Of a stretch of DNA of 64,000 nucleotides, positions 8,068-56,065 are shown piece by piece. The DNA is from Bdellovibrionia bacterium (GTDB lineage: Bacteria > Bdellovibrionota > Bdellovibrionia > Bdellovibrionales > JAGQZY01): assembly GCA_030427805.1 (NCBI GenBank), contig JAUICP010000003.1, forward strand, positions 381,758 to 445,757, given 5' to 3'. A model generated the notes under the pieces. The model had not been told where the DNA came from. It ran no database searches and was given only the letters and a program-made list of their open reading frames with translations. Every line of letters begins with the position of its first letter. Within the stretch, counting starts at the first letter, position 1. Position numbers and translations under genes: made by a program.

Positions 8068-9957
8068 ATGAAGAACAAAACCTATACTGCTGGCATTTGC
8101 CTCAGTCTTCTCGTTTCGATCGTGCTGCTCGGGCAAGCCTGCGAAATCAAGAAGCTTGGCGGCAGCTATGGTGAGCTGTCCTCAAACTCCGAAATTCCTG
8201 GAGGGACTCCGCCCAACCCCGAGGAACTTCCACTAGAAATTATTAGCCTCAACTCGGAACGACTTTATCGTTCGGGCGGTTTTGTCGATCTCGAAATAAA
8301 TAGCTTTCAAATCAATAGCCACCGCATTCGCATTGGTGGATCCCTTTGTTCTGCACTTTTTGCTCTCAATGCTCAGGGGAGTGATTCTCAGAACAAGTAT
8401 CGCTGCTATCTCGGAGCCAACGAAGGTGTTAACTCAAAAGTAGAAATAATAAACGACAATGATGATATTCTCTTCAGCCATGGCAATGACATTCTTTGGA
8501 GAGACTATCTCGAAATTAATTTTATGGCCGGACTCCTGAACAACACGAGTTTGCAGCCACCTTTGCCCGCCGAAGGCATTAAAGGTGATGCTCGTTATTC
8601 AAATATTTCGGGCCTTGCCGTGGATGAAAAAGGGCAATTTGCATACATTTCCGATTCCCAGGCCCACCTGATCCATCAGTTGAACTTGTTGACCGGTGAA
8701 TCGAAAGTCTTTTTGGGAAGTCTCAGCGAAATCAATAGCTATAACCCTGGATATCAAGATGGAGTGGCTGCAGAAGCTGAATTTTCATCACCTTCAGAAC
8801 TCGCTCTAAGGGATGGAAAACTCTACATCGCAGATGAGGGTAACGCTGCCATTCGCGTCTACGATTTTGAATCGAATGAGGTTTCAACCTTTTTGGGAAC
8901 ACCCAACGATCGACAGGTAATCGATTCTGCCAATCGCTCAGAAGTTCGCATTGCAGACCTCTCTTCTCTCTACATCCTTGGCAATCAACTCTTTTTTGCA
9001 GATCTCAACTGCCTTCGAGTTTACAACTTCGCCAGCGATGAAACGCAAACTCTCGTCGGACAAGTGGGACAAAATTTTGATCCCGGCATGACCTCTTGGA
9101 CTGCTACGGATAATTCTACGGTTACGGAATATGTTTTACCTCAAGTTATTGAAAGTCCGAACCCCTACGCGGCCTTCAGTGATATTGATTACGTTGTCAC
9201 ACTCCCAGAGAAGGCTCTTCGAGTTTCTTTGGAGTTTGAGTATGTCGATGTCGAAAATGGCTTTGATTTTGTCAGAATCCTCGGGAAAAAAGGCATTGAG
9301 CTGGATCGCCTCACTGGAAATTCAGGGGGGACACTGATCACAGACTTTTACCCCGTCAACGACACAAAATTAATCGTTAATTTACTCAGCGATGTGTCGG
9401 TCCAGGCAACTGGTTTCCGACTCGTAAAAGTTCACTACATTAAAGAGTCTGATTTCGATCGCCCTTTAAGCCACAGCCTAGATGCTACCTTCGATAACGC
9501 CCTCATAGGTCGTATCGAAAGTATTTCTAGCGATGGTCAAAACCTTTTCATTGGTGATTCCTTGGGTAACTTCATTCGCGAAATCAACTTTCAAGAAGCT
9601 CAAGTAAAAACTCTCTTCGGAAACGGCTTTAACTCGACGGCTACCGTTCTCAGAGCCGACCTCCCCGACAATTCGCAACTCGGCATTAATTCTGGCACCG
9701 CCTTAAATGGACTTTTTGTTGACGGAAAATCCATCTACTTTAGCGATGCCTCTGCAGACCGAGTTTTGAAACTGAGTCGAAGCCATGGCCAAGCTGAAGA
9801 ACTCATTTTTACCAAGTCAGAAGAGGGAATGGCTCCCGGCGAGACAGATGGGGGACTGGGTGAAGAAATTCAGGTCCTCCGTCCAGGGCAGCTTCATTTT
9901 CATCCACAACTAGGCCTCCTTTTGGCCAACCCATGGAATGTAAGAGTCATAGAATAG
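8068..9957 (+). CDS. NHL-propeller exported protein with inserted CUB-like domain
   Basis: Exported, probably lipid-anchored protein of 629 residues. The signal peptide ends LLGQAC with C25; this is not a canonical lipobox, so anchoring is uncertain. NHL/SMP-30-like propeller blades are at about 165-330: NISGLAVDEKG, AYISDSQ, LRDGKLYIADEGNAAIRVYD, NQLFFADLNCLRVYNF. They resume at about 475-600 (GQNLFIGDSLGNFIREI, KSIYFSDASADRVLKL). Between them, about 345-460, lies a segment with the CUB pattern: ESPNPY, a hydrophobic strand, FEYVDVENGFDFVRIL, TGN-G, then LSDVSVQATGF. It is transcribed alone and followed by a terminator. Binding of a sugar or protein ligand is inferred from the folds only. 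Confidence 0.7.
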   Translation: MKNKTYTAGICLSLLVSIVLLGQACEIKKLGGSYGELSSNSEIPGGTPPNPEELPLEIISLNSERLYRSGGFVDLEINSFQINSHRIRIGGSLCSALFALNAQGSDSQNKYRCYLGANEGVNSKVEIINDNDDILFSHGNDILWRDYLEINFMAGLLNNTSLQPPLPAEGIKGDARYSNISGLAVDEKGQFAYISDSQAHLIHQLNLLTGESKVFLGSLSEINSYNPGYQDGVAAEAEFSSPSELALRDGKLYIADEGNAAIRVYDFESNEVSTFLGTPNDRQVIDSANRSEVRIADLSSLYILGNQLFFADLNCLRVYNFASDETQTLVGQVGQNFDPGMTSWTATDNSTVTEYVLPQVIESPNPYAAFSDIDYVVTLPEKALRVSLEFEYVDVENGFDFVRILGKKGIELDRLTGNSGGTLITDFYPVNDTKLIVNLLSDVSVQATGFRLVKVHYIKESDFDRPLSHSLDATFDNALIGRIESISSDGQNLFIGDSLGNFIREINFQEAQVKTLFGNGFNSTATVLRADLPDNSQLGINSGTALNGLFVDGKSIYFSDASADRVLKLSRSHGQAEELIFTKSEEGMAPGETDGGLGEEIQVLRPGQLHFHPQLGLLLANPWNVRVIE

Positions 9958-10153: not shown

Positions 10154-11842
10154 ATGGGATTTCAATACCATAAATCAAAAAAGAAGGTGGACGAGAGTAC
10201 ACAGTGGTCATCTTATAGTGACCTTTTCATGATGCTCGCGGTTGTCTTTTTATTAATGTATGTCACTTCGAGTGTGCGCGAAGGTGCTTTTAGTATTCAA
10301 AAATACCAAGAGTATCAACGCCTTGCTAAAGAAGCTGAGAGCTTAAAGGATCAACTGAGAGTTTATAATACTCTCAAAGATGATTACCTCGAGAAAAAAG
10401 CTTCGCAAGATGAAGTAGAGACCTATGAAGAACTCATGGCTAAACTTGATCTCTTGCAAAACGAGAATAAAGACGAGGCTCGCAAGTTAGAGCAAAAAGC
10501 CCAAGAGAACAAAGCTAAGGCGACAGCTCTTAACAAATACCAACAGATCATTCGCAATATTATCAATAACAACGTGATCGCTCGAGCCCGTGTCGACAAG
10601 AAGAACGAGATCATCACACAGAAGAATGAAGAAATTGAACTTAAAGAAGCTGATATCGACGACCAGCTTATTGCTATTTCAAAACTTGAAAGAAACGTTA
10701 AGCAAAAAGAACAGCAAATTGAACAAAACAAAAGACAAATTGCTAAGGTCCAGAGTCAGCGCGATCAGCAGATCCAAAAGATTAACAAGATGTTCCAGCA
10801 GCAGCGAATCACCAAAAGCCGAATGCGAGAGCAAATTGCTAAACTCAAGCAAGATGCAAATCAGCAAATCCAACAACTCGAGTCCAAGGCACAGCAAACT
10901 CAGAGTGAGTTGAAACAAGTTTCTCGTCAGTTAGCCAATGTGAACACTGAACTCATGCAGGCCAAAGATACCATCGAGGAAGAGAGCAAGAAGAACGAAC
11001 AGCTTGCTGAAGAACTCGCTAGTGCCGCTGACAGAGCAAAAGAGCAGATGGAAACTCTTCAAGCTGAATTTGATGTTAAAAGACGTCTTGATAAGCAAAA
11101 GTTTGAGAAAGCTCTCAAAAGAGAGAAGCTCTCCAAGGCGCAAATCAAGAAACGCCAACAAGAGTTTCAAAAACAGGCGAAGCAAAAAGAAAAAGAACTG
11201 GCAAAGAAGCTTGCCGGCCTAAATACCAAAGTTGAGACGACAGAAAAAGAGCTCAAAAAAGCCCGCGAATTGTTAAAGGCTCGCGAAAAGCTGGCAAAAC
11301 AAATCATAAAGAACTTCAAAAAAGAAGGTATCAAAGCAGGTGTCGACGAAAAGACCGGAGATGTTTTACTAACATTTGGAGATCAATATTTCGACACAGG
11401 TCGTGCAAGTCTTAAAGGTGGAATGATTGAGAAACTCAAAAAGTTTATTCCTATTTATGCTAAATCGCTCATGGAAGACCCTAAGACGGCTGAGAAAATT
11501 GATTCTGTTGAAATCGTCGGTTTTGCATCCCCGACTTTTAAAGGCAAGTATGTCGATCCACGAAGCATGGATGAAGAGACCAAAACAGCTGTAAACTACA
11601 ACCTGCAGCTTAGTTTTGATCGAGCAAAATCAATATTTAACTATATGTTTGATAAATCGAAAATGGATTACCGCTACCAAGGAGACCTTAGGCCTCTTGT
11701 TAAGGTAACGGGTCGAAGCTTTTTAGCTGAAGACATCGAGGGACGCTCTATTGCGAGTAGCCTCAGTCGCAAAGAATATTGCGAAAAATTTGATTGTAAG
11801 AAATCTCAAAGAGTAATTATTAAATTCTCTTTGAAGGATTAA
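10154..11842 (+). CDS. MotB/ZorB-like motor subunit with long coiled coil and OmpA-like domain
   Basis: 562 residues. A short basic cytoplasmic N-terminus precedes a single transmembrane helix (about 22-39) that begins with Asp23 in SDLFMMLAVVF. This is the position of the ion-carrying Asp of MotB, PomB and ZorB. A continuous charged coiled coil runs over about 50-390, against about 50 residues of linker in a normal MotB. The C-terminal 400-562 is OmpA/MotB-like, with YFDTGRASL, VEIVGFAS, N-LS-DRAKSIFNYM and VKVTGRSF, predicted to grip peptidoglycan. AGGA precedes the ATG by seven bases. It is followed 12 bases later by a MotA/TolQ-like gene. A flagellar stator is unlikely given the insert and neighbours. 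Confidence 0.8.
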   Translation: MGFQYHKSKKKVDESTQWSSYSDLFMMLAVVFLLMYVTSSVREGAFSIQKYQEYQRLAKEAESLKDQLRVYNTLKDDYLEKKASQDEVETYEELMAKLDLLQNENKDEARKLEQKAQENKAKATALNKYQQIIRNIINNNVIARARVDKKNEIITQKNEEIELKEADIDDQLIAISKLERNVKQKEQQIEQNKRQIAKVQSQRDQQIQKINKMFQQQRITKSRMREQIAKLKQDANQQIQQLESKAQQTQSELKQVSRQLANVNTELMQAKDTIEEESKKNEQLAEELASAADRAKEQMETLQAEFDVKRRLDKQKFEKALKREKLSKAQIKKRQQEFQKQAKQKEKELAKKLAGLNTKVETTEKELKKARELLKAREKLAKQIIKNFKKEGIKAGVDEKTGDVLLTFGDQYFDTGRASLKGGMIEKLKKFIPIYAKSLMEDPKTAEKIDSVEIVGFASPTFKGKYVDPRSMDEETKTAVNYNLQLSFDRAKSIFNYMFDKSKMDYRYQGDLRPLVKVTGRSFLAEDIEGRSIASSLSRKEYCEKFDCKKSQRVIIKFSLKD

Positions 11843-11854
11843 GGGAGAGGGACA

Positions 11855-12844
11855 ATGTTTTCACAATCGTTTATTCAAGGGATGGTCGATGCACTCGTTG
11901 TATTCGCAACAGATCTCCTGCTACCATTAATGGTTTTCAGCTTTATGCTGGCCCTAGTAGCAAGATCACTCATCTACTACACCGTCTCTAGGCACGAGTG
12001 GTTCACCAAAGAGTTTGAGAAAAGAGTTAACCTCTTTCTTGAAACAGAAGACCATAAAAAAGAGGTCAGCTTCTTTGTAACCGCAAAAAGGATTCTGGAA
12101 AGAACTTTCTATGAGATCTTTGAAATCAGAGACATCATGAAGCGTCGCAAGCCAGACATACTAATGTCTAGAAGCGATCGTCTCTTCCTCATCAAGCAAG
12201 GTTGTGCTTGGCTAGTTAAGGATATGCAAAAGCAAATCAGACACTTACGCCACGGTAAAACAGATGCTCAGCCAAAACTCATGCAGATGACTCGCTCCTC
12301 TCTGCAAAACAACCCTGCATTTAACAAGTTATTCGGAGTTGTCCCCTCTGCTCCAATTAACGAAGTGCTTAACATTCTCCCCGGAATCTTCATCGTCGCC
12401 GGTATTTTTGGAACGTTTTTAGGAATTATGAAGGCCCTACCCGAACTCGGTACTATGGACCTTGCCAACTCTGAGAAGTCAAAAGAAGTCATGGACCAGT
12501 TCTTACTCAAGATCTCATTTGCAATGAGTACTTCTCTTGTTGGTATCATGCTTTCGATCGTAATGAACTTTTTTAATACCCTATTCTCACCAGACAAAAA
12601 ATTCGTTGAGATCGTAGAGCGATTTGAAAATGCCTTGGATCTTCTCTGGAGTCGAAGTAACAACAATGACTTACCAGAAGACATTCCTGATTTTGACGAG
12701 CACAGAGATGCCATCGATGCCCTAGCAGAGAATGCCATTAATCAGACAGTTAAAGAAAATAAAGTTGCAAGTAAACGAACGCCTAATAGTGAGAACAAGC
12801 CACCTGAGCCACCACCCCAGGAGACTGATACTAAGGCGTCATAG
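11855..12844 (+). CDS. MotA/TolQ/ExbB-superfamily (ZorA-like) ion-channel subunit
   Basis: 329 residues with three predicted membrane helices: about 18-42, 172-193 and 217-243. The channel signature is plain: LPGIFIVAGIFGTFLGIM in helix 2, and SFAMSTSLVGIMLSIV in helix 3. The latter resembles the AF-TSL-GI motif of ExbB, TolQ and ZorA. A cytoplasmic domain of about 130 residues separates helices 1 and 2. The tail (270-329) is Pro/Glu-rich and probably disordered. In the family five copies surround two MotB-type helices and convert ion flow to rotation or force; the preceding gene supplies the partner with the Asp. GGGAGAGGG lies before the ATG. Closer assignment (ZorA, TolQ or AglR-like) needs a tree. 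Confidence 0.8.
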   Translation: MFSQSFIQGMVDALVVFATDLLLPLMVFSFMLALVARSLIYYTVSRHEWFTKEFEKRVNLFLETEDHKKEVSFFVTAKRILERTFYEIFEIRDIMKRRKPDILMSRSDRLFLIKQGCAWLVKDMQKQIRHLRHGKTDAQPKLMQMTRSSLQNNPAFNKLFGVVPSAPINEVLNILPGIFIVAGIFGTFLGIMKALPELGTMDLANSEKSKEVMDQFLLKISFAMSTSLVGIMLSIVMNFFNTLFSPDKKFVEIVERFENALDLLWSRSNNNDLPEDIPDFDEHRDAIDALAENAINQTVKENKVASKRTPNSENKPPEPPPQETDTKAS

Positions 12845-12862
12845 CCATAATTGACAGGGAGT

Positions 12863-15800
12863 ATGAGCAGGACGTCTTACCTCTTTCGTATTCTAATAAA
12901 AAATAAAAAGGGAACAGAGGAACACTTTGTTTCATCGAACCCTTTTACCTTCGGGAGATCGGAAGATGCCGACGTATTTTGTAAACACGTCGGCGTTAGC
13001 CGTTTGCACCTCATTGTCAAAGCTGTGGGGAGCAAACTCTATTTTCAAGATCAAGGAACTCGAAACGGAACTCACCTCGGTGGCATGGCGATTGATACAC
13101 AAAAGGATATTGAATACTCACAAGGCCAACAATTTACTCTTGGAACCTGTGAAGATGTTTTTAGTGTCGAAATGTTTCGACAGGGCCTCTCCCCTGAGGA
13201 AGAGGCTTCTGAAGTTTATCAAGAAGCTAAATCTAAAGCCAATAAACTCATTGAGAAGGCTAATAAGCGCATCGAAACGGCCCTTGAATCTTCGGCTGAA
13301 AAAATAGAAGCCCAAGAAAAAGAAGCTGAAGAAGACATTCGAAGTCGTCTCGCTTCAGTGGAAGAAGAAAAAGAAAGAATCGTCGAAAAGGCACGTTTTG
13401 AAGCCGATGAATTGGAGCAAGAAAGTCTCTCGAAGGCTAACAAGCTCACCGAACAAGCCAACCGAGAAGCCAATGAAACTGTTAACAAAGCCCAAGCTGA
13501 AGCCGATGAAATATTAAACGGAGCCAAAGAAAGTGCTTTAAAAACAGTGAACGAGGCTACTGCAGAGGCTACCGAACTCAAAGAAGAGGCTGAGGCCTAC
13601 GCTACCCGCCTCAAACAAGAGATCGATGAAGAGGTAGATCGACTTAGGGCCGACAACCAACTCAAAGTCGATCATATGATTAATGAGGCCGAGACCAAGG
13701 CGGCAGAGATTGTCGAAGCCTCTCGCAGCGAAGCCCAGGTGGTAGGCGACCAAGTTATTGCAGATTCCAAGCAAAAGGCCGTTGACCTCTACGAAGACTA
13801 CGAATCTCGAGGTCAAAAGTTTTTAACGGATGCCGAAGAGCGGGCTAAGATCATCGTGAGTGAGGCCGAAAAGAAGGCTCTTCTTCTGGCCGACGGAGCT
13901 GACTCCCAGGCTAAGCGCACGATTAATGAGTCTGAAGAACAAGCTTCCGAAATTATCACAGCCGCAGAGATTAAAGCTGATCAAATTCTTTCCCAGGCCG
14001 GTTCTGAAGCGCAAAAACAAATCGATGATGCCGATTCATACGCTAATGAAACCATTGATACCGCTACAGACAAAGCCGAAGAAAAAGCTGAATTCGTTCT
14101 TTCTGAGGCAGAAGACAAAGCCCGTCGAATGGAAAAAGAAGCTAAAGAGAAGCTCGATTCGGCCCAGGAGTATTTGGATACTGAGTCACAAAAACTTCGT
14201 GATGAGGCCGAAGATGCCAAAGTGAAACTTCTTCTCGAAGCGGAGCTTAAGGCAAAAGCCATTTCGCAAAAAATGATTGATGAGGCTCAACAGGAGTCCG
14301 ATGATGTTCGTGCCCAAGCGATCCACCAAGCTTTGGAAATCAAAAAAGAAGCTGAACTTAAGGCCGAAAACCTAATTAAAGGGGCCGAACTCAATAGAGA
14401 TGAAATCATTGAACAGGCCAAGGCAGAAGCTCAAACAATAGAAGAAAAAGCCCACGCCCAGGGCGATACGATCATCGAAGAGTACAAGGTTAAAGCCGAT
14501 GACAATTTCGCCGAGGCCAAGAAAGAGGCCGACCTCATAATATTAGAGGCTAAGGGCGAGGCTGCCAATATCGTAGATCGCGCCAAGGGTGAAGCCTCGC
14601 AAACTGCGGACAAGCTCATTGAAGAGGCCCAACATACGGCGAAGGAAATTAAAGACAAGGCCATCGCCCTCAAAGAATCGACTGAGGATGAGGTCTCTGA
14701 ACACAAGGCGCAAATTCTTCTAGAAAAGCAACAACACGAAGTAGAGCTTAAAAACTTACAAGAGGAACTTGACCGTCGCCAAGCTAATCTCAACGAAACC
14801 AATACGCAGATTGAAGAGATTAATCGCAAGCGAGAAGAAGCTCGCGTTCAGTTAGAAAAAGTTACAAAAGACTTAAACAACATTGAAGCCGATTATGAAG
14901 AAAAAGATCGAGAAATGCGCAAGACCCTACTCGATCTCACTACGGACTTGGAGTCGATTAAGACGACAATTACTAAGCAAAGATCTGTACTCTCTGGACT
15001 TGAAGACCAACAGGGGCAAAAAGAAAAAGCACTCTCAAAGCTGAATAAAGAGTTCGAAGAACTCAATGTTGAGTTTGCAGAATTGAAGGCCGAAGCTGAA
15101 ACGATTATTGATAAAGCTCAGGCTGAAAAAGAGGGCTACTTAAAGGATGTGGTTAGCCTCAAAGATCAGAAATCTGATCTCAGTTCGCAGGTCGACGATC
15201 TTAAGCTCGCCCTTGAACAATCAAAGGGCGAACTCGATAAAGTGAATGAGCAGCTGAATCTCGAGCTCTCCGAACGCCGCGAAGCCGTCGAGAAAGAAAT
15301 CGAAGACAATCGTCGAAAAGGCATTGCTGAGATCGAGGCCATGCGCCAAAAGGCCCAAGAGGAATCTGATCAGCTCACTCGCGAGGCCAATGCTTACTTT
15401 GCAGACAAAAAAGATGAAGCCGATCGCCTCAGGGCTGAAGCACTTTCTGGCGCCCAGGAGGAGGCAGAAAATATCATTCATCTCGCTCAGGCTAAAAAGC
15501 TCGAGACCGAAGACAAGATCAAAAAAGATCTCGAAGAAAGTAAACACTATATAGATACTGAGTCGAAGAGGTTCAGAGATCAAATGGATAGTGAAGTGAA
15601 GGCTTTTGAGATCGAGAAGAAGACTTACTACGATCAAGTTCACGCAGAAGTGAGTGCGATTAGAGAAGATCTAGAGCGAAAGCACCAAGAGTTTGATAAC
15701 GAACTCCACAAGCGTCGCGAGGAACTGGAAAGTAGCTTCAACAAAGAGCGCTCTGACTTTTTACGTGACTTCAAACTCGATCAAAAGAAACTCAAAAGTG

Positions 15801-16960
15801 AACGCAAGGAATTCGAAACCACTCGCGATGAGGTTTACGAACAAATGAAACGCGAAGCCGCCGGTGAGGCCTATGACCTCATGGACAAGGCTAAGCAAAT
15901 GATTGAAGACTCGCAAAAAGAAGCCGCAGAGATCAAAGAAAAAGTGTTCAATGAAATTGAAGCCATGCAAGAAGACGTTCGCCAAGAGGTGGTCAAAAAG
16001 CGAACAGAACTGGCCCAAGAAATCGTTCGACTTCGCAAGAACGCTCAAGCTCGCGTTAAAAAGCGCGAAGAAGATGCCGATCAAGCGCTCGCCGCGATTC
16101 GCCTTCAGGCCATTGAGGATGAAAAGGACCGAGTGGCCCGCGCCGAAGAAGAATTCCAAGCTCGAGTCAATAAGTATGTTAAAGAAGCGAGTCTTAAAGT
16201 CGAAATGCTCGTCAGCTCTAAAATCCCCGACTTGATTGCAAATAACGAGGACGCACGCGCGACTAAGACTCTCATGCGTGAAATTCGTGAAACGGTCAAA
16301 AAGATACTTCAGGGTGAAAATACCGATGGTGAAGCAACGGTAAAGAATATTATGGATTACAACCCAGATCAGACCGAGAAGACCAAAATGTGGTGGAAGA
16401 ACAGCTCTAAATTCGCTGCCGCCGCTGCCGTCGTACTCGCTGCTAGTTTTATCTTTAGAGATAGCATTAAAGATGCCGGTGTTGCGATTCTTTCCAGTGA
16501 GGGACCCTCTGCCGAAGACCTTCACCTTAAGAAAATAAAAGAAGAGCGCGAGAAGAGAAAATACAAGCCTAAGAAAACCGGTGATTACAAAAGCTCGTAC
16601 ACTAAGAATATTCTCTATACGACTGACTACTTAAAGATTAAGCAGAGTAAGGACTATCAAGATAAGTGGATTATCGAAGCCAATGACTACTTTGTCGAAA
16701 AGCTGGGATTGAGCGATAATACGGTGGTTTCTTTTATCGCTCTAGAGAATAAGATGATCAACAAGCTCAATAAACTGAGCGAGGATATCGACTCTAGAGA
16801 CATCTCTAAGGGCGTCGATGCCATGATTAAAGAAGAAGAGCAAATGGTGACTCAGCTTATGGTTAAGCTTGAAGGTGAACGGCGCTATAAGAAATTCGCC
16901 AAGTTCCGCGAAAAGTTCTGGGATAATTTCGTTAAAAATAGAAAAGTAAGTTCTGAGTAA
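12863..16960 (+). CDS. Giant FHA-domain coiled-coil protein with C-terminal membrane anchor
   Basis: About 1,365 residues (numbers here count from an alternative TTG at 12851). The FHA phosphothreonine-binding domain is at about 10-105, with FGRS at 34-37, the SRLH motif and GTRNGT intact. About 120-660 is an Ala/Glu-rich coiled coil built from 11-residue units (for example KAQAEADEILN, GAKESALKTVN, EATAEATELKE from residue 213). About 660-1170 is a heptad-type coiled coil. One membrane helix (FAAAAAVVLAASFIF, about 1188-1202) is followed by about 167 residues predicted to be periplasmic. Lys-rich flank before the helix supports N-in topology. The ATG at 12863 has GGGAG only one base away; the TTG has no Shine-Dalgarno. 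It forms an operon with the MotB-like and MotA-like genes. Confidence 0.8.
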   Translation: MSRTSYLFRILIKNKKGTEEHFVSSNPFTFGRSEDADVFCKHVGVSRLHLIVKAVGSKLYFQDQGTRNGTHLGGMAIDTQKDIEYSQGQQFTLGTCEDVFSVEMFRQGLSPEEEASEVYQEAKSKANKLIEKANKRIETALESSAEKIEAQEKEAEEDIRSRLASVEEEKERIVEKARFEADELEQESLSKANKLTEQANREANETVNKAQAEADEILNGAKESALKTVNEATAEATELKEEAEAYATRLKQEIDEEVDRLRADNQLKVDHMINEAETKAAEIVEASRSEAQVVGDQVIADSKQKAVDLYEDYESRGQKFLTDAEERAKIIVSEAEKKALLLADGADSQAKRTINESEEQASEIITAAEIKADQILSQAGSEAQKQIDDADSYANETIDTATDKAEEKAEFVLSEAEDKARRMEKEAKEKLDSAQEYLDTESQKLRDEAEDAKVKLLLEAELKAKAISQKMIDEAQQESDDVRAQAIHQALEIKKEAELKAENLIKGAELNRDEIIEQAKAEAQTIEEKAHAQGDTIIEEYKVKADDNFAEAKKEADLIILEAKGEAANIVDRAKGEASQTADKLIEEAQHTAKEIKDKAIALKESTEDEVSEHKAQILLEKQQHEVELKNLQEELDRRQANLNETNTQIEEINRKREEARVQLEKVTKDLNNIEADYEEKDREMRKTLLDLTTDLESIKTTITKQRSVLSGLEDQQGQKEKALSKLNKEFEELNVEFAELKAEAETIIDKAQAEKEGYLKDVVSLKDQKSDLSSQVDDLKLALEQSKGELDKVNEQLNLELSERREAVEKEIEDNRRKGIAEIEAMRQKAQEESDQLTREANAYFADKKDEADRLRAEALSGAQEEAENIIHLAQAKKLETEDKIKKDLEESKHYIDTESKRFRDQMDSEVKAFEIEKKTYYDQVHAEVSAIREDLERKHQEFDNELHKRREELESSFNKERSDFLRDFKLDQKKLKSERKEFETTRDEVYEQMKREAAGEAYDLMDKAKQMIEDSQKEAAEIKEKVFNEIEAMQEDVRQEVVKKRTELAQEIVRLRKNAQARVKKREEDADQALAAIRLQAIEDEKDRVARAEEEFQARVNKYVKEASLKVEMLVSSKIPDLIANNEDARATKTLMREIRETVKKILQGENTDGEATVKNIMDYNPDQTEKTKMWWKNSSKFAAAAAVVLAASFIFRDSIKDAGVAILSSEGPSAEDLHLKKIKEEREKRKYKPKKTGDYKSSYTKNILYTTDYLKIKQSKDYQDKWIIEANDYFVEKLGLSDNTVVSFIALENKMINKLNKLSEDIDSRDISKGVDAMIKEEEQMVTQLMVKLEGERRYKKFAKFREKFWDNFVKNRKVSSE

Positions 16961-28263: not shown

Positions 28264-30933
28264 ATGAAAAAATCTTTACTGCAGGGTCTCAAAACCTGGG
28301 GTCTTGGTTCCATCTGCGCTTCAGCTCTTGTTTTTGCTACGACAATTGCCAGTGGGCAAAGCGCTACATCTATAGATATGAGTGATATTGGCGGAACTGA
28401 TTCTTCAGAAATCAGAGCACCGCAACCAGAAACAACAAAAAAGACCGACGATATCGAAAAACTCGAAGTTACTGGATCTTTGATTAAGAGAATTCAAGTT
28501 GAGGGACCTGAAACTCTTATCACCATCGACAAAGAGGCTTTGGATCGCTCTGGCTACAACTCTCTTTCTGACGTTCTTCGTGAAGTCACAGTTTCTGCCT
28601 TTGGTGGTCCTCGTGAGCAATCCGGAAGCAATGCTGCTGGTGTTGCCTCTGTTAACTTAAGAGGTCTTGGGCCCGAGAGAACTCTCGTACTTCTCAACGG
28701 AACGCGCCTACCAAAAGATCCAATTACAGGTGCTGTGGACTTAAACTTAGTTCCAATGGCCGCTGTCGCTAAAATCGAAATCCTACCCGATGGAGCTTCT
28801 GCAACCTACGGTTCTGATGCCCTCGGTGGAGTTGTAAATATCATTACTCGCAAGGACTGGTCGGGAACGGAAGCGACTGTTCGCCAAACGATTCCTGAAA
28901 ATACAGGCGGAACACGAACTGATATTTCTGTCGTTAATGGAATTAATTTCGGTAAAACAAATGTTACGACAACGGTTTACTACCGTAAAAACCGTCCTCT
29001 TTGGGCGATCCACAGGGACTATACCGATGATGGTTTTAGTGCCACTGGAAGCCCGGGTACAGCGCAAAAGCTCAGTACAACGAAGCGTACTAAAGCCGGC
29101 GGCCCCGTGGGAGAAGGCCCTCTCGTAGCGTCTGAGTTCTGCCCAGAAGCTGATCGCATCGAATTCAATTCACCGACAACGGGTGCTAACAGTTACTGTC
29201 AGTACAAGTGGTCCGATCGTGCCACTTCTCTTCCTGAAATTGAGCAACTCTCAATTATGAATGAAGTGAAATCTGAGTTTAATGCTTCAACTCGCTTCTT
29301 CACGCGAATCATCGCCAACCAAAAGTACACGACTTGGCAATACGCTCCGGCTCCAGGAAATTTAGAAATTCCATCTGGTGCAGCAAGCAAATTGAACAAG
29401 GGCCAACCACTCCAAGGCTTTGCTGCTGGCGACTCTCTTCTTTACAAATACAGAATGAACGAACTCGGAGACCGAATCTCTGATATCGACACTCTTTCTT
29501 ACAGCACGACGGCTGGAATCGAGCGCGATCTCGGCGAAACGTGGGAAGCTAAATTCACCCTTTCACACAATCGCCTACGCAAAGAAGATATCGGATCGAG
29601 CGGTTACGCCGATATCCGTGTCCTCAATGAACTGATCGAAACAGGAAGATTCAATCCTTCGGCTGCAGAGGGGCAACGTGGAAGTCTAGAGGCTGCTCGA
29701 TATGTTCCTTTTGAAAACTCCATGTCTGAGCTTAACCAAGTTGAGCTTCGCGCTTCTGGTGAAATTTTCGAAATGGCTTCTGGCCCCGTTGCAATGGCGA
29801 TCGGTACCCAGTTCACTTCTGAAACCTACCAAGATATTTTTGATAGCTTGAGCGTTCAAGGACTTGTGTTTGGTAACGCCGGAAGCTCTGGTGGTGGATC
29901 ACGTTCGATCTATTCTGGTTTCACAGAATTCGTTGTTCCCCTTGCCAAAACTTGGGAACTTCAATTGGCTGGACGCTATGACAACTTTAGCGACTTTGGT
30001 TCTACTTTTAATCCCAAAATCTCTACCCTCTACAGACCAAGTAACTCTTGGCTCCTAAGAGCTTCTGGTGGAACCGGCTTTAAAGCTCCTAAAATGGTTG
30101 ATCTTTATGCCGCTACTTCAAACGGCTTCCCAACCTTTCTTGACAAAGTCGCCTGTGCGAAGAATGGCGGAAACGATTGTAACCCGGCACAGTGGAATGT
30201 GACTTCTGGAGGTAACCCAGGTCTTAAAGAAGAAAAGTCAGTCTTTGCGAGCATGGGAGCTGCTTATCAACCGAGCCAAAATTTCATGATTGGTTTCGAC
30301 ACGTTCTACGTAAAAATGGATAACGTTGTTGATATCGACTTTGAGAAAGCGACAGAAGCCGAGCAACAAGGAATTGATGTTCAAAGTTTTGGAATCACTA
30401 TCACTCGTGATGCCAACAACCAAATCGTTAATATGGACGCTCAATTGCAAAACCTTGCAAGCCGCGAACTCGCCGGTATCGATTTCAAAACCGATGCCAG
30501 TACGAGAACTGATATCGGTCGCTTCAGCGCTGCCATGACTCACTCTCACCTTTTCTTTTACAAGCAAGAGCTTTTTCCAGGTCTTGGAACTGAAAATATC
30601 CTTGGTAGAAATAGCTATCCGCGCTTTAGAAACGTAATGAGCTTTGGTTACACGCCGAATGGTGCAAATCTTACATCATTCTTTACTGCTAGAACCATTG
30701 ATCGTCACGAGAAAGCAATTGCTGAACCAAACCACGAGATTCGTCGTTATACGGAATACGACATCACTGTAAATTATGCAGCCCCATGGAATGCAGATAT
30801 TTCCCTAGGAGTGAAAAATGTATTCGGGACAACTGCGCCATTGGATGATACAAATGGAAACAACCAGCTGGACCCAGATTTGTATGACCAGGTGGGAAGA
30901 CTCGTTTTTGCGGGTTATACGCAAAATTTTTAA
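28264..30933 (+). CDS. TonB-dependent outer-membrane receptor
   Basis: Active-transport receptor of 889 residues. Signal peptide about 1-32 (IASGQS). A TonB-box-like stretch IEKLEVTGS is at 64-72. The plug domain is about 85-196 with NLRGLGPERTLVLLNG at 131-146, VEILPDGAS-type motif IEILPDGASATYGSDALGG at 171-189 and NIITR. The barrel then runs to the C-terminal YTQNF, with GGNPGLKEEKS (the usual N-P-LKPE-S motif) near 650. This type resembles the large OMR/Oar-like and CirA-like receptors; substrate unknown. It is the first gene of an operon encoding its likely energy source (TtpC, ExbB, ExbD and TonB). Confidence 0.93.
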   Translation: MKKSLLQGLKTWGLGSICASALVFATTIASGQSATSIDMSDIGGTDSSEIRAPQPETTKKTDDIEKLEVTGSLIKRIQVEGPETLITIDKEALDRSGYNSLSDVLREVTVSAFGGPREQSGSNAAGVASVNLRGLGPERTLVLLNGTRLPKDPITGAVDLNLVPMAAVAKIEILPDGASATYGSDALGGVVNIITRKDWSGTEATVRQTIPENTGGTRTDISVVNGINFGKTNVTTTVYYRKNRPLWAIHRDYTDDGFSATGSPGTAQKLSTTKRTKAGGPVGEGPLVASEFCPEADRIEFNSPTTGANSYCQYKWSDRATSLPEIEQLSIMNEVKSEFNASTRFFTRIIANQKYTTWQYAPAPGNLEIPSGAASKLNKGQPLQGFAAGDSLLYKYRMNELGDRISDIDTLSYSTTAGIERDLGETWEAKFTLSHNRLRKEDIGSSGYADIRVLNELIETGRFNPSAAEGQRGSLEAARYVPFENSMSELNQVELRASGEIFEMASGPVAMAIGTQFTSETYQDIFDSLSVQGLVFGNAGSSGGGSRSIYSGFTEFVVPLAKTWELQLAGRYDNFSDFGSTFNPKISTLYRPSNSWLLRASGGTGFKAPKMVDLYAATSNGFPTFLDKVACAKNGGNDCNPAQWNVTSGGNPGLKEEKSVFASMGAAYQPSQNFMIGFDTFYVKMDNVVDIDFEKATEAEQQGIDVQSFGITITRDANNQIVNMDAQLQNLASRELAGIDFKTDASTRTDIGRFSAAMTHSHLFFYKQELFPGLGTENILGRNSYPRFRNVMSFGYTPNGANLTSFFTARTIDRHEKAIAEPNHEIRRYTEYDITVNYAAPWNADISLGVKNVFGTTAPLDDTNGNNQLDPDLYDQVGRLVFAGYTQNF

Positions 30934-30952
30934 GGACAAGGGGTCAATTCGT

Positions 30953-31720
30953 ATGAGAAACATTCGTACATTGTTAGTCATTGTCTCTCTTTTCAGCATG
31001 GGTTCGGCATTCGCGAACCCATCTGCTAAAGTTGACAAAACCAAAGCTGAACAAGCTAAGAACCACGACCAAGCAGCGGCTTCTCAAAAGAAAGTCACTC
31101 AGGTAGCAAGTCAAACTCGCACCATCACTGATGACTACCGCATGGTCCTCAAGCGCATTGAGAATACAAAAGTCTACAACCAACAGTTGCGGGACTTTAT
31201 CAAATCGCAAAATGAGGAAATGGTTAGTATCGGACAAAAGATCGAGAGCTTAAAAACTACCAATAAGGACATCATTCCTTTGATGGTTCGCATGCTCGAA
31301 ACTCTTGAAAAGTTTGTCAATCTCGACACACCTTTCTTGCCAGAGGAACGATCTAACCGTCTGACTCAGCTGAAAGCTATGATGAAACGTGCGGATGTTT
31401 CGACTTCCGAAAAATACCGCAGAATCCTTGAAGCTTATCAGGTCGAAAATGAATACGGCCGAACAATTGAAGCTTATCGTGGAGTTCACAAAGTCGGTGA
31501 AAAAGACCTCACTGTGGACTTCCTTAGAGTTGGTCGGGTTGCTCTCATGTATCAATCTCTCGATGGTGAAGTCAGCGGACTTTGGAGCCAGAAAGAGAAA
31601 AAATGGGTTGAGCTTCCTTCTAGCTACAAGCGCACTATTACTAAAGGTTTAAGAATCGCCAAGAAGCAACAAGCTCCTGACTTGATTCCGATGCCTATTA
31701 CAACGCCGGAGGTTCTCTAA
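30953..31720 (+). CDS. DUF3450 family periplasmic protein
   Basis: 255 residues from ATG 30953, which has AAGGACAAGGGG upstream and gives a signal peptide (about 1-21, SAFA). It is mostly helical: a coiled coil at about 40-105 is followed by PFLPEERSNRLTQLKAMMKRADVSTSEKYRRILEAYQVENEYGRTIEAY in short conserved blocks, the DUF3450 pattern. The C-terminal part (DFLRVGRVALMYQS, SGLWSQKEKKWV) is beta-rich. In vibrios a DUF3450 gene stands beside ttpC in TonB2 clusters; the protein probably assists TtpC in the periplasm. Its stop overlaps the ttpC start by one base (TAATG). Confidence 0.85.
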   Translation: MRNIRTLLVIVSLFSMGSAFANPSAKVDKTKAEQAKNHDQAAASQKKVTQVASQTRTITDDYRMVLKRIENTKVYNQQLRDFIKSQNEEMVSIGQKIESLKTTNKDIIPLMVRMLETLEKFVNLDTPFLPEERSNRLTQLKAMMKRADVSTSEKYRRILEAYQVENEYGRTIEAYRGVHKVGEKDLTVDFLRVGRVALMYQSLDGEVSGLWSQKEKKWVELPSSYKRTITKGLRIAKKQQAPDLIPMPITTPEVL

Positions 31721-33069
31721 TGATTAAAAAGATCCTTTTACCATTAGTCTCTTTGGTGATTGCCTTTTCAGCACATGCTGAAGGCGAAAAACAAACATTA
31801 GATGGTCTTCTAAAACAGGTTCTTTCTGAACGAAATGTCCAGTCAAAAGAACTGAAAGAGCGCGAGCAAGAGTTTATTAACAAAAAGGCTCAGCAGAAGA
31901 CTTTACTCAATAAAGCACAAAAAGAACTCGCTGCCCTCGAAGCGGAATCAAAACGCCTCAATGGAATCTTTGAAAAGAACGAGAAGAAACTCTCGGTTCT
32001 CGAAGAAGAACTCAATATTGCAGTGGGAACTCTTGGAGAACTCTTTGGAGTGGTCAGACAAGTTTCTGGCGATTTCGCAGGAACCGTTCAAACTTCAGTG
32101 ATTTCTTCACAGTTTAAAGGCCGTGAACCCTTTTTGAGAACGATGGCCGAAACGAAAAACCTTCCAGATATCCCTCAGCTCGAAAAACTTTGGTTCGAAC
32201 TTCAGCAAGAAATGACTGAGTCTGGTAAGGTTGTTACATACAAAACAACTGTAGTTAAGCCCAGCGGAGAAAAAGTAGAACTTCCCGTCACTCGTGTCGG
32301 AAGCTTTAACCTCGTAGCTGATGGCAAGTATTACGTTTATCAAGGCGAAACTCAGCAAATCACCGAGCTCGCTCGTCAGCCTTCTGGCCGCTACCTTTCC
32401 CTCGCTGATGACTTCGCAGACGAAGATGATGCCTTTGCACCTTTTGCCATTGACCCGAGCCGAGGAACAATTCTCTCCATGCTCGTGAATGCTCCTAGCC
32501 TGAGCGAACGTATTCAACAAGGTGGTCTCGTTGGTTATGTGATTCTCGCTCTTCTTTTACTGGGTCTCGTTTTAGCTGGTGAGCGTTTTGTCACTCTACG
32601 CAAGCAAAAAGCCATGATCGACGAACAGTTAACTACTGATGAGCCGATCGAAGGCAACCCTCTTGGATCTATTCTTAAAACTTTTAACGAGTTTAAAGAC
32701 AAAGACCTTGAGACATTAGAACTCAAAATCGACGAGACGGTTATTAAATCGACTCCGCCGATTACAAAAGGGATTTCTACTCTGAAAATTCTTTCAGCAG
32801 TGGCTCCCTTATTGGGACTACTCGGAACAGTAACTGGTATGATCCAAACGTTTCAGTCGATCACTTTATTTGGAACTGGAGATCCTAAGCTTATGGCCGG
32901 TGGTATCTCTCAAGCTTTGATCACAACGGTTCTCGGACTTGTTTGCGCCATTCCTCTTCTACTCATCCACAATTATATTAATGGAAAGAGTAAAGGGATC
33001 CTGCAAATTCTCGAAGAGCAGAGTGCAGGCTTAATGGCCCAAAAAACACAAATGGTTAAAAAGGACTAG
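31720..33069 (+). CDS. ttpC: TtpC-like TonB2-system protein (MotA/TolQ/ExbB family)
   Basis: 449 residues. Signal peptide or first helix 1-20, a periplasmic coiled coil at about 38-100, and a periplasmic domain to about 265. Three membrane helices follow at about 269-287, 354-374 and 395-419 with the ExbB signature APLLGLLGTVTGMIQTF and GGISQALITTVLGL. TtpC is the extra component that some TonB2 systems need for energy transfer. The coding overlap with the DUF3450 gene and the 3-base gap to exbB indicate tight co-expression. The gene name is from architecture plus context. Confidence 0.88.
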   Translation: MIKKILLPLVSLVIAFSAHAEGEKQTLDGLLKQVLSERNVQSKELKEREQEFINKKAQQKTLLNKAQKELAALEAESKRLNGIFEKNEKKLSVLEEELNIAVGTLGELFGVVRQVSGDFAGTVQTSVISSQFKGREPFLRTMAETKNLPDIPQLEKLWFELQQEMTESGKVVTYKTTVVKPSGEKVELPVTRVGSFNLVADGKYYVYQGETQQITELARQPSGRYLSLADDFADEDDAFAPFAIDPSRGTILSMLVNAPSLSERIQQGGLVGYVILALLLLGLVLAGERFVTLRKQKAMIDEQLTTDEPIEGNPLGSILKTFNEFKDKDLETLELKIDETVIKSTPPITKGISTLKILSAVAPLLGLLGTVTGMIQTFQSITLFGTGDPKLMAGGISQALITTVLGLVCAIPLLLIHNYINGKSKGILQILEEQSAGLMAQKTQMVKKD

Positions 33070-33072
33070 CCT

Positions 33073-33585
33073 GTGGGATATATCCTTGAGCTCGTTCAAA
33101 ACTTTATGGATGCCGGTGGGCAAGTATTGTGGGTGATTTTCTTCACAACGCTTGCTCTTTGGGCCCTTATTCTAGAGCGCTTTGCCTTTTTCAAATTCGA
33201 AATGCCAAAGCTTAAAGAACAGGCCCAAGAACACTGGAAGGGAGTTGGTTCCCACGAGTCGTGGTCGGCCCATAGAGTGCGCGAAATGATCATTTCTCAG
33301 GCGCGATCTGAGATCTTTCGCTTTGTTCCCGCCATCAAGACCTTAGTGGCCCTATGTCCACTGCTCGGATTATTGGGAACAGTAACAGGAATGATTGCAG
33401 TATTCGATATAATGGCCATAGCCGGTACCGGAAATGCTCGAATGATGGCCAGTGGTATATCCATGGCCACTATTCCGACCATGGCGGGTATGGTTGCCGC
33501 GCTCTCAGGACTCTATTTTGGAAGTCTTTTAGAGAAAAAGGCAAAAAGAGAAACAGAATTTCTTTCTGAAAAACTCACTTTTTAG
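33073..33585 (+). CDS. exbB: ExbB-like proton-channel subunit
   Basis: 170 residues, the short ExbB2 type. Three helices at about 17-36, 88-110 and 132-152. CPLLGLLGTVTGMIAVFD at 95-112 and SGISMATIPTMAGMVAAL at 127-144 are the conserved channel motifs. The start is GTG at 33073 with AAGGA upstream. It forms the pentamer that encloses ExbD helices and powers TonB. Third gene of the TonB2-like block. Confidence 0.93.
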   Translation: MGYILELVQNFMDAGGQVLWVIFFTTLALWALILERFAFFKFEMPKLKEQAQEHWKGVGSHESWSAHRVREMIISQARSEIFRFVPAIKTLVALCPLLGLLGTVTGMIAVFDIMAIAGTGNARMMASGISMATIPTMAGMVAALSGLYFGSLLEKKAKRETEFLSEKLTF

Positions 33586-33599
33586 TCGAGGATAAATTT

Positions 33600-34010
33600 A
33601 TGAGACGTAAGAGACGTTTAAATAATGAAGAAGAAACAAGTATTGATTTAACACCCATGCTCGACGTGGTTTTTATCATGCTTATATTCTTTATCGTGAC
33701 GACTTCATTTGTTAAGGAATCGGGAATTCAAGTGAATCGCCCGAGTGCAGCGACTGCTGAAAAGAAAGAGCGAGCCAATATTATGATCGCTATTTCTGAG
33801 TCGGGAGAAATTTGGATTCAAAAGCGTCGAATTGATATTCGTTCGGTTCGGGCCAATGTTGAAAGACTGCACGCAGAAAGCCCCGAGGGCTCTGTCGTCA
33901 TTCAGGCCGACAAAGATTCAAAGAATGGCCTACTCGTTCAGGTCATGGACCAAGTAAAGCTTGCTGGTGTTCAATCTATTTCTCTAGCTGCAAAACCTGG
34001 AGTGAACTAG
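33600..34010 (+). CDS. exbD: ExbD-like energy-transduction protein
   Basis: 136 residues, normal length. The single membrane helix (about 18-38) carries the essential ion-binding Asp as D22 in PMLDVVFIMLIFF. The periplasmic domain is about 40-136 (IQVNRPSAAT, VVIQADKDSKNGLLVQVMDQVKLAGV). GAGG precedes the ATG. It works with the adjacent ExbB and TonB. Confidence 0.95.
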   Translation: MRRKRRLNNEEETSIDLTPMLDVVFIMLIFFIVTTSFVKESGIQVNRPSAATAEKKERANIMIAISESGEIWIQKRRIDIRSVRANVERLHAESPEGSVVIQADKDSKNGLLVQVMDQVKLAGVQSISLAAKPGVN

Positions 34011-34011
34011 T

Positions 34012-34638
34012 ATGAAGCGATTAGGCTTAGCCTTTTTAGCAGCCTGTGGGGTCAGCTTTGGCCTTTTCTTTTTAATGGCATCACTCATTAGCGGTGGCCA
34101 TAAGGCGATTGAAAAGTCAGATAGCGAAAACTTTATTGAGTTCTTGCGCGTAAAAAATGATGAGAACCTTCAAGCTCGGGATCGAAAGCGCCCTAAAAAG
34201 CCACCCGAGCCGAAAGAAGCTCCGCAGAGACCAAAGCTACAAATCGCTCAAGACCAAACTCCGCAAAAACCGCAAATGTCTATGCAAGCCCCACAACTCG
34301 CCGACAATTTAGCCCTGGGTGACGGTCCTTATTTAGGTTCTGCTGCTGCTGGTGGCAGTAGCGACTCTGACGTTGTGCCATTGGTTCGCATCGAACCTCA
34401 GTACCCGCGCAAAGCAGCCATGCAGGGTAAGCAGGGTTTTGTTGTACTCTCTTTCGACATCACCGAGACAGGTGCCGTAGAAAACGTAAACGTCTTGCAG
34501 TCCCAGCCGAGACGAATTTTTGATTCAGCGGCCAAAAGGGCACTCCGCAAGTGGAAGTACAAGCCCCAAGTAATTGATGGAAAACCGACCAAGAGGAAAA
34601 ACCTCAAAGTCCAACTAGACTTTAAACTCCAAGGTTAA
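34012..34638 (+). CDS. tonB: TonB-like energy transducer
   Basis: 208 residues. Membrane anchor about 7-28, a short Pro/Lys/Gln-rich linker about 60-95, and the TonB C-terminal domain at about 125-208: EPQYPRKAAMQGKQGFVVLSF, GAVENVNVLQSQP, AAKRALRKWKYKP. The linker is much shorter than in E. coli TonB, as in TonB2 types. The ATG is one base after the exbD stop, with GGAG inside the exbD end. It probably serves the receptor encoded at the start of this operon, and perhaps others. Confidence 0.94.
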   Translation: MKRLGLAFLAACGVSFGLFFLMASLISGGHKAIEKSDSENFIEFLRVKNDENLQARDRKRPKKPPEPKEAPQRPKLQIAQDQTPQKPQMSMQAPQLADNLALGDGPYLGSAAAGGSSDSDVVPLVRIEPQYPRKAAMQGKQGFVVLSFDITETGAVENVNVLQSQPRRIFDSAAKRALRKWKYKPQVIDGKPTKRKNLKVQLDFKLQG

Positions 34639-34645
34639 GGCAGAA

Positions 34646-35959
34646 ATGTTTAGCCAATTAAAAGGTTTAAGAATTATGAGACAAAATTTTATTACTCAAA
34701 TTCTATTAGGAATGATCCTCGTACTTTTCACACTCGAGGGTTTTGCTTCTCTTCCCAAAATTGGTGTGAGCCAAAAAGTTTCGGCCCTAAAAAGTAGAAG
34801 AGCGGCCCTCACTTCTAAGAACGTCTTCAAGAAATTACAAAGAGCTAACGAGCTCTCAACCAGTGAAAACTACGACAAAGCCCTATCAATTCTTGATAAG
34901 CTTCTCAGCCAGACAAAAGAGCGCCCCTACGAGTATTCCCAAGCCCTGCAATCCAGAGCCTTTGTTTTCGCTTCTCAAGGAAAATATAAAAAAGCGATCG
35001 CTGACTTTGAGGAAGTTCTCAAGGTTGGAGCTCTTCCCTACGGCCCTACCGTGTCTAGCATGTACACCCTTTCTCAACTTTACGGACAAATTGGGAATTC
35101 CAAAAAGGCCCTTAAGATTCTTATGGAATGGTTTCAGAGCGTGGAAGAAGCAAAACCACAGGCCTATGTCTTTTATGCGTCTATGCTCTTTGAGCAGGGT
35201 AAGAAAAAACAAGCTCTTGAAAATGTTGATTATGCCATTTCTAAAAGTTCGAATCCCAAAGAGAATTGGTTGAAATTAAGCGTAGCCCTCAACTTTGAAT
35301 TAAATCAGTTTAAAAATGCTGAACGCAGCCTTCGTATTTTAACGCAAATGAAGCCTGGTAATAAGCAATACTGGAAGCAACTGGCGGGCACCTATATTAA
35401 TCTCAATGACTTTAAACAAGCCCTTGCCACTTTTGAACTCGCCTATAAGTGGGGTCACCTCGAAGACGAGAAAGATCTTATGAATCTGGTGAGTCTTTAT
35501 ATCGAGCGAGGTATTCCTTTAAAGGCTGCACAAATTCTTGAGAAGCACATGAAAAGTGGCCAGATCAAGAAAACTAAGAAAACCAATAAGCTTCTTTCAC
35601 AAGCCTATTACCAGGCCGAAGAAATCGAAAAAAGCATCCCCCCTATGAAGCTTGCGGCCGAACAAGCAAAAGATGGACAGCTGTTTTTTCAGTTAGGACA
35701 GCTCTATCTCGAGAAAGAAGATTTTAAAACGGCTATTAAGTACCTCAATAATTCAGTCGCCAAGGGCGGCCTTAAAAAGCCCGGCTACGCATTTCTGAGT
35801 CTTGGTATTGCCCAATACCAAACAAAGGATATCAATAAATCTTTAGAATTTTTGCGTAAAGCTCGCAAGCATGAGGAATCTGAAAGTGCGGCCACTTCTT
35901 GGATCAACTTTATCTCAGCCGAAACTGGAGCCTCAGACTCTGGCCAGATGAAGCTGTAA
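34646..35959 (+). CDS. TPR-repeat protein of the TonB2 locus
   Basis: 437 residues with a signal-peptide-like N-terminus (about 11-34; a second ATG at 34676 would give a shorter one, but AAGG lies five bases before 34646). About ten tetratricopeptide repeats follow from residue 65, with motifs such as ALQSRAFVFASQGKYKKAIADF, YVFYASMLFEQGKKKQAL and LGIAQYQTKDINKSLEFL. TPR solenoids act as docking scaffolds. A TPR gene closes TonB2 clusters in vibrios as well. It starts seven bases after tonB and is last in the operon. Confidence 0.88.
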   Translation: MFSQLKGLRIMRQNFITQILLGMILVLFTLEGFASLPKIGVSQKVSALKSRRAALTSKNVFKKLQRANELSTSENYDKALSILDKLLSQTKERPYEYSQALQSRAFVFASQGKYKKAIADFEEVLKVGALPYGPTVSSMYTLSQLYGQIGNSKKALKILMEWFQSVEEAKPQAYVFYASMLFEQGKKKQALENVDYAISKSSNPKENWLKLSVALNFELNQFKNAERSLRILTQMKPGNKQYWKQLAGTYINLNDFKQALATFELAYKWGHLEDEKDLMNLVSLYIERGIPLKAAQILEKHMKSGQIKKTKKTNKLLSQAYYQAEEIEKSIPPMKLAAEQAKDGQLFFQLGQLYLEKEDFKTAIKYLNNSVAKGGLKKPGYAFLSLGIAQYQTKDINKSLEFLRKARKHEESESAATSWINFISAETGASDSGQMKL

Positions 35960-48000: not shown

Positions 48001-48553
48001 TACCCAAGTCGAAGGCGATAAACATTATTTTATAATAATCGACGAGCGAGGTTTCATGGGCGGTCGCAGCGATTACCACAAGCTCATCCAGGTAAGGCGT
48101 GCCCCTGAGTTCACCAAGGGATCGACATTGGGACTCATCACTCATACATGGGTTTACATAAATTTTCTTAAACTCACTCAGGTCACTCCCATTGAGCTGA
48201 GAGGATTTATGTTGTTCCGTAAGAATTCGACTTAATAATGAGAGCGCTTTTATAAAGCCACGTGTTTTAGGCGCTTCACCAGATTGAAAAACCTCAGAGT
48301 TGAGAACCCGTGGTCGCAAGACTTCTAGACACTCCTCAGCTGACTTCTCTCCACCTTCAAAATCCCTTAAAAGCTGATCAATTTCTTCGTCACCTGATTG
48401 GGCAGTTAACTTATCGGAAGTTTCAAAAGAAACTTCCGGCGCTGGGCTTTGATGATCATAGAGCGGATCACTGTAATCAACTGAACAAGCGCTGCTCAGA
48501 AGTAAAATAGAAAGTCCTATAAGGTGCCAAAGGCACTTATTCAACTTCTTCAG
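45020..48553 (-). CDS. Giant lipoprotein, paralogue of the upstream gene product
   Basis: About 1,177 residues. From a CTG at 48553 the product begins (M)KKLNKCLWHLIG with lipobox SSAC, and GGAGGG lies eight bases upstream inside the end of the preceding gene. The ATG at 48604 in the same frame lacks a ribosome binding site. No known family. It is helical, with a pair of cysteines and an AATAHETSLVDYYK block near 140-160 that aligns with AIATAQDDVISYYR in the upstream protein. A MPLMVQMSK ... RRPWFKF block also matches PNMMMLIYLMAK ... LSPWFSF. It is the third gene of a leftward operon headed by a metzincin gene. Confidence 0.65.
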   Translation of the reverse strand: MKKLNKCLWHLIGLSILLLSSACSVDYSDPLYDHQSPAPEVSFETSDKLTAQSGDEEIDQLLRDFEGGEKSAEECLEVLRPRVLNSEVFQSGEAPKTRGFIKALSLLSRILTEQHKSSQLNGSDLSEFKKIYVNPCMSDESQCRSLGELRGTPYLDELVVIAATAHETSLVDYYKIMFIAFDLGNSRAPTFVLDAYFARFKELAQSDLFKTGNDEFFYRRHMILLGEVAEKSESLSDGNILSFLLYIEPWKPRSETNDEIENSLKAMSFGLFTNHLKKSPELKNAFRAYINNTINTYEETQLGALKKRTPLGINMIEKLNIDLEFLKSENSRVDFFFAMSIYKADFGIQEVVEMREALGIQTNFYPIAQSGLQLKMAEQVKATNEFMRRKFIEKTSSSLSEEAINSTIFDNFLYEAQLIGEEWMQFTENTNLLKDLSLSLAPSSQLSEINKYFASVDRNIEMVVTYALMMPLMVQMSKMNYNQRIKILWFEFVISARSIMAQFFRGYRRPWFKFTTELNRLYPHELILSFYYSIAIDGYSAFNTSVKEFLDQAYERLIQQNINRYRIYTNQLIDTYLSTGEFQNLIGFCFNPNYTESLRFEDLDDFTQGSFETYFKGGSSPGAPSGYNYYSEVFSDIDAEEDGMYIVPFAELLDSHRTEFLDRMKLIKRFYQIAKEHSQEDLSAFQSKIDEAEKVSNLFITRVVQIHEISEACQSLRIETERKRQVALIKYEREYLKDIYKLAQGIQKGEVSLESANESLKFDEGYPDNYKGFDHFEKIGNKVVYHFHKLDLMRRVRNHLSTGYQNSSGESLPAIALYYHPTKFEATNSYLKPWSFDGSKEIRPRVEISIPGRLRNNSGLQVQIDGKPYSYFSNKFPRISFQIESGTSEEQFLGEALELYNSRPAAEETASFKNQMGKWQDQLSEAFFKVQYYSAHFQLILYKMGDIPIYDYQRPECLKESSLNPSSCLKTYRIEASDLVRASLKPFLFADISEPEEVEVYGYLKRRMRPDTMNPYEGLAPTLFNPKSQQPLGVFNYIMTGLSQELLGNSFACLSDKGCDAAVTRVGDLKRAKDYHLTEGLKKIFFFPVALGIKQDIFSDLKARVHHNFNQIATFEREMNLAIQEIATESDRHSSTHFQLNLMLNSEALQVPWLESNNLSSETAFETFNEDTEGLFE

Positions 48554-52043: not shown

Positions 52044-52048
52044 AGCGC

Positions 52049-55774: not shown

Positions 55775-56065
55775 AAATATCCCTAAAACCGATGGGCTCT
55801 TTCGAACCCTTTTGTGCATCGCGCAAATGTACGGCATTTTTAAGATTTTTAAAAGAAATCAGTGATTTAACTCACCTGAGGGGGAAAAAAATTCTAGAAA
55901 GAACCCCAGAGTGCCTATTTATGTCTCTCCTATAAGCACCTGTTTGATTTTCTATAAAGAGAAGGAGGATCGCCCTATTGAACTGGAGAAATTACAAGTT
56001 CCAGCCCAAAAATGTCACGATCTGCATTGGAGTTTTTTAGGAGGGATCGGCATAGAATAACCGTC

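Follow-up and report, generated by a model that had tools for sequence, protein, structure and literature searches.

An FHA-bearing coiled-coil protein paired with a ZorAB/MotAB-type gene pair: a candidate ion-driven membrane motor of Bdellovibrionota

The window, that is the whole stretch of 64,000 nucleotides analysed here, contains three consecutive open reading frames on the + strand, termed B, A and F. They raise the question whether a MotA/MotB-type pair and a giant FHA protein form one machine, and of which kind. Few ion-driven membrane motors of this class are known, namely those of the flagellum, of the Ton and Tol systems, of gliding and of Zorya. The genes and the parts of F are as follows:

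10154..11842, + strand: gene B, MotB/ZorB-like, 562 aa
11855..12844, + strand: gene A, MotA/TolQ/ZorA-like, 329 aa
12863..16960, + strand: gene F, with FHA domain, coil, membrane helix and C-terminal domain, 1365 aa from ATG 12863
12947..13144, + strand: FHA domain of F, residues 33-98 counted from TTG 12851
13196..16390, + strand: coil of F, residues 116-1180 counted from TTG 12851
16412..16468, + strand: single predicted membrane helix of F, residues 1188-1206 counted from TTG 12851
16466..16957, + strand: helical C-terminal domain of F, predicted periplasmic, AlphaFold2 pLDDT 94

The reading frame of F is open from TTG 12851 to 16960. ATG 12863 is most likely the start and is favoured over the TTG, since a ribosome-binding-type site (GGGAG) lies in front of it. 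With this start, B and A are spaced by 12 bases and A and F by 18 bases. The positions and gaps given in the first-pass annotation, which was made from the letters and reading frames, were confirmed when the ORFs were re-read. According to Pfam, an NHL/CUB-domain protein and a trypsin-like protein are the neighbours of the operon in the window. Just upstream on the same strand (8068-9957), NHL repeats and a CUB-like stretch follow a lipoprotein-signal-like start.

B has a sole membrane helix (about residues 23-41) with Asp23 at its start. This residue was invariant in 13 of 13 aligned sequences and agrees in position and motif with the Asp of ZorB in the alignment; thus, B is a single-helix protein with a conserved Asp at the membrane helix, as expected for the superfamily. 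The peptidoglycan-binding-type domain (about residues 383-562) is marked by an invariant YN..LS..R motif and by Cys543/Cys548, and the C-terminal end matched the PADLOC model ZorB1 with E 2e-26. Both the Asp23 and the OmpA-like end described at first reading therefore hold. When the profile of B was compared with solved structures, the motor-type matches were ZorB chains. Furthermore, B contains an unusually long coil that the first-pass annotation had not mentioned. It comprises 335 residues (about 46-380) with one Gly and no Pro, shows a hydrophobic period of 3.54 and lies on the predicted periplasmic side. If straight, it would measure about 50 nm. The periplasm is usually thought to be shallower, hence the coil must tilt or fold back.

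For A three membrane helices are predicted. The protein ends within about 90 residues after the last of them, and this final part is of low confidence in the structure model (pLDDT 79.5). A matched Pfam MotA_ExbB (PF01618) above the cut-off with E 1.1e-5, and Foldseek ranked ZorA first (E 2.5e-4), followed by ExbB and TolQ, with modest TM scores; A is thus a subunit of the MotA/ExbB family. The ZorA models fitted better than this general model (E 3e-9), the best of them reaching 36 bits and thereby remaining below its cut-off of 100. None of the TolQ/ExbB models of NCBIfam matched A, and its profile found ZorA only among solved structures, plus one chance-level match. Thr187 and Ser227 are invariant and align with T147 and S184 of E. 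coli ZorA. In the tree, all A proteins of the family form one clade (support 96/99), which adjoins ZorA and is separate from it. The MotA-, TolQ- and ExbB-type homologues (PF01618) of the same genomes fall on a different branch (support 99/97); the firm clustering with flagellar stators that, according to the first-pass annotation, would have refuted its reading was not observed. The adjacency to ZorA is suggestive, because the tree rests on only 106 usable columns and contains some long branches. Taken together, the ion-path residues (Asp23 of B, Thr187 and Ser227 of A) and the peptidoglycan-binding-type end of B are the sequence evidence for a motor, and the motor class of the B-A pair is well supported.

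Further members of the family and further large genes were noticed. Genome G000 has 18 PF01618 matches of the MotA/ExbB family; five relatives have 4 to 12. At 28264-35959 of the window, a TonB-dependent receptor, a DUF3450 protein, two ExbB/TolQ-like proteins (449 and 170 aa), a TonB-like protein and a TPR protein are encoded in a row, apparently an energised outer-membrane transport cluster of known kind. On the - strand (45020-55837), three consecutive ORFs of about 1200 aa gave almost no Pfam match, one being weakly Met-zincin-like.

A scan of named genomes yielded 80 loci, nearly all titled Bdellovibrionota, among them Bdellovibrio bacteriovorus (L069), Bacteriovorax, Halobacteriovorax, Pseudobacteriovorax and Oligoflexia bacteria. 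B was located directly upstream of A in 79 of the 80 loci, the contig of the last one beginning at A, and F came next after A in 77 of 79. At L066 an F without FHA is placed divergently upstream of B, and at L046 no F was seen at the locus. Many of these loci belong to close relatives and are hence not independent. Among 241 genomes sampled evenly over the phylum, A was found in 87 (strong matches), the C-terminal domain of F in 76 and both in 75 (Fisher p ~3e-48). The one genome with this domain and no A holds a fragment of 131 aa. The first-pass annotation had proposed synteny as a check, and the neighbourhood proved to be conserved, with F hardly ever occurring without A. Flanking genes vary between families and are not conserved beyond close relatives, nor is there a conserved fourth gene beyond them; hence, the linkage of B, A and F is not passive synteny. 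Both A and F are under strong purifying selection, with dN/dS of ~0.018 and ~0.026, respectively, when the genome of the window is compared with another one from its genus.

This pairing bears on the question whether F and an ordinary MotA/MotB pair merely sit side by side with no functional relation. Beside some A-B pairs there are other genes, and in G108 of genus g16 (L188, L189) F stands 0.9 Mb away from A-B, the first strands of its FHA domain being lost. The latter case looks as if a rearrangement broke the operon. Given the joint occurrence of A and F and the 71 of 79 F copies within 6 kb downstream of A on the same strand, we consider mere neighbourhood extremely improbable. The near-obligate pairing is the sequence evidence that F belongs to the motor.

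Two further readings can be weighed against the distribution. As an auxiliary stator, the operon would serve the flagellum or gliding of the Agl/Glt type. Most genomes of the phylum carry FliG, Bdellovibrio glides, and there is a precedent in that AglR interacts in two-hybrid assays with GltG, a bitopic membrane protein with a cytosolic FHA domain (PMC3169522). However, G123 and G199, which have no detectable FliG, retain A and F, the operon of G123 being intact, and many genomes with FliG are without the operon. Since, in addition, A branches apart from the MotA/TolQ/ExbB types and the C-terminal domain of F gave no TonB-like match, a stator is improbable.

Somewhat more improbable still is a divergent phage defence of the Zorya type with lost or replaced effectors, in which a disturbance of the cell wall by infection would make the motor turn and F would stand for the ZorA tail. 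A and B match ZorA and ZorB best by sequence and structure, and F supplies a long cytoplasmic rod like that tail (PMC11890865). In contrast, no ZorC, ZorD or ZorE was found beside the operon, and no copy of it was found on the plasmids, phages and viral contigs searched, so that a mobile or viral origin was discarded; ZorA itself does occur on plasmids. The operon was present in 16 of the 17 sampled genomes of genus g16, which is steady rather than patchy, smc, ftsY and uvrD-like genes are among those beside it in relatives, and A forms its own clade. The NCBIfam model ZorA1 gave no matches in the phylum, a result of little weight as its controls were equally silent. Thus, the phage-defence option raised in the first-pass annotation is unlikely, and its statement that no Zorya or Agl/Glt partners are adjacent applies to the window and to the neighbours in relatives. 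A resident envelope machine thus suits the data better than either a flagellar stator or a defence system: the operon is retained in two genomes with no detectable FliG and missing from many that have it, no copies were found on mobile elements, Zorya effectors are lacking, and its presence in g16 is steady.

Which part could F play in such an envelope machine? Its FHA domain matched PF00498 with E 1.8e-8, and at the sequence level the window copy has Arg, Ser and Asn at the predicted phosphothreonine-binding positions. This set was intact in 57 of 80 F sequences. In several loci of Bacteriovoracaceae the FHA domain is degenerate, and in L053, L091 and L113 it is missing. The tip appears, from these sequences, to be dispensable and not essential. 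Recruitment of phosphothreonine proteins, proposed at first reading as the role of the tip, can hence not be a universal function of F. Behind the tip, the coil extends over about 1065 residues with two Pro and a hendecad-like hydrophobic period of 3.68; as one straight helix it would measure about 158 nm. The membrane helix was located from hydropathy, both in the window sequence and in the near-identical copies L018/L034. The C-terminal domain has a confident AlphaFold2 fold. Its window copy gave no Pfam match, the fold search gave no match in the PDB (best E 2.9), and no viral match was below E 0.3. A match of its profile to colicin E7 was marginal and not supported by the fold search. F variants without intact FHA retain the coil, the helix and the C-terminal domain, and this domain is a more constant signature of F than FHA.

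Such variants would also suit a scaffold for polarity or the envelope. F would then be a long filament that is pulled or positioned by the motor, a structural element and not a receiver of signals. Weak scores link the coil of F to DivIVA/Wag31 and Scy, but they are far below the cut-offs and may reflect coiled-coil composition only; the likeness was rejected. As the full phosphothreonine-binding set is kept in the majority of F sequences counted above, we regard a purely structural F as rather unlikely. Ser/Thr kinases are uninformative as discriminating partners, as 111 of 114 genomes have them, whether or not they carry the operon. F is probably not Bd0474, an FHA gene required for the killing of prey (PMC6561027): in B. 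bacteriovorus, F lies between genes named from their sequence as smc-like and ftsY-like, while Bd0474 is numerically near tadC (Bd0470).

Where F is absent, other proteins occupy the third place in related motors. An ankyrin-repeat membrane protein, divergently transcribed, stands beside B in G015, G020, G091, G124, G111 and G151 (domain match E 2e-21). Loci of this ankyrin variant are L031, L032, L182-L184 and L190, where the repeats form the C-terminal part of the divergent membrane protein. A small cyclic-nucleotide-binding protein (E 6e-20) follows directly after A in the divergent group L144-L147, L149 and L150; B of this group can exceed 1000 aa. At a single locus, L186, a receiver-domain protein follows A (E 7e-26). 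The ankyrin and the cyclic-nucleotide groups each form one clade inside the same A family in the tree. A of the cyclic-nucleotide group is much more divergent, hence its third gene is not established as equivalent to F in role. As sensor-type or adaptor-type proteins take this place in related motors, the timing or the target of motor action is probably set by the third gene.

We consider it probable that the products of the three genes make up a single ion-driven membrane motor, of the ZorAB/MotAB class. Sequence and co-occurrence thus support the motor-type module with a separate coiled-coil arm that the first-pass annotation had suggested. Five A would surround two B, and ion flow past Asp23 would turn A relative to B, which would be pinned to the cell wall via its long periplasmic coil. 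The single helix of F would anchor it in the membrane next to the motor, with the C-terminal domain reaching the periplasmic side near the coil of B. From the analogy to GltG and the exchange of third genes, we infer that a distinct ion motor receives signals through F, whose long, FHA-tipped cytoplasmic coil would serve as an arm linking the motor to a phosphorylated partner. The arm would recruit this partner, which would either load onto the motor or release the motor. Candidate outputs in the cell are envelope work, polarity and predation.

More tentatively, these operons may represent a distinct motor class centred on Bdellovibrionota, linked to signalling by an exchangeable third protein, the FHA version of which would reach up to about 150 nm into the cytoplasm. 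In the literature searched, no paper described the B-A-F operon. A conserved, uncharacterised motor of Bdellovibrio and its relatives, with a third subunit of its own and a domain unmatched among solved structures, would be a lineage between Zorya and the envelope motors. If so, it would help to learn how signalling switches motors of this kind, and this can be tested in the cultivated Bdellovibrio bacteriovorus, which carries the operon.

Compared with known systems, flagellar MotAB stators likewise pair a polytopic A with a B that has one Asp-bearing helix and a wall-binding end. A differs from MotA in its three-helix ZorA/TolQ layout and its place on another branch, apart from all PF01618 rows including the MotA type, in a tree of few columns and long branches. 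TolQR and ExbBD resemble the operon in the general fold of A; B is instead ZorB-like with a long coil.

In the gliding system AglRQS/GltG of Myxococcus, a bitopic cytosolic-FHA protein works with a MotA/TolQ-like subunit, as proposed for F. The novelty of an FHA arm beside a MotA-like subunit is tempered by this precedent. GltG has a TonB-like motif, unlike F, and no giant coil is described for it in PMC3169522. The partners of AglR further include two ExbD/TolR-like proteins and numerous Glt proteins, whereas no AglQ, AglS or Glt genes are adjacent to the operon and A lies outside the TolQ/ExbB-like branch.

The closest likeness is to Zorya type I, whose ZorA and ZorB are the best matches of A and B, share the ion-path residues and have the same peptidoglycan-binding-type end on B. 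A long cytoplasmic rod is associated with the motor in both. In Zorya this rod is the cytoplasmic tail of ZorA (PMC11890865); A has no such long C-terminal tail, and another protein, F, supplies the rod and carries a membrane helix of its own. The gene order is B-A-F in place of A-B-C-D, and B carries the 335-residue coil that is absent from ZorB. No ZorC, ZorD or ZorE is adjacent, and the operon is chromosomal and steadily kept, with A as a clade of its own beside ZorA.
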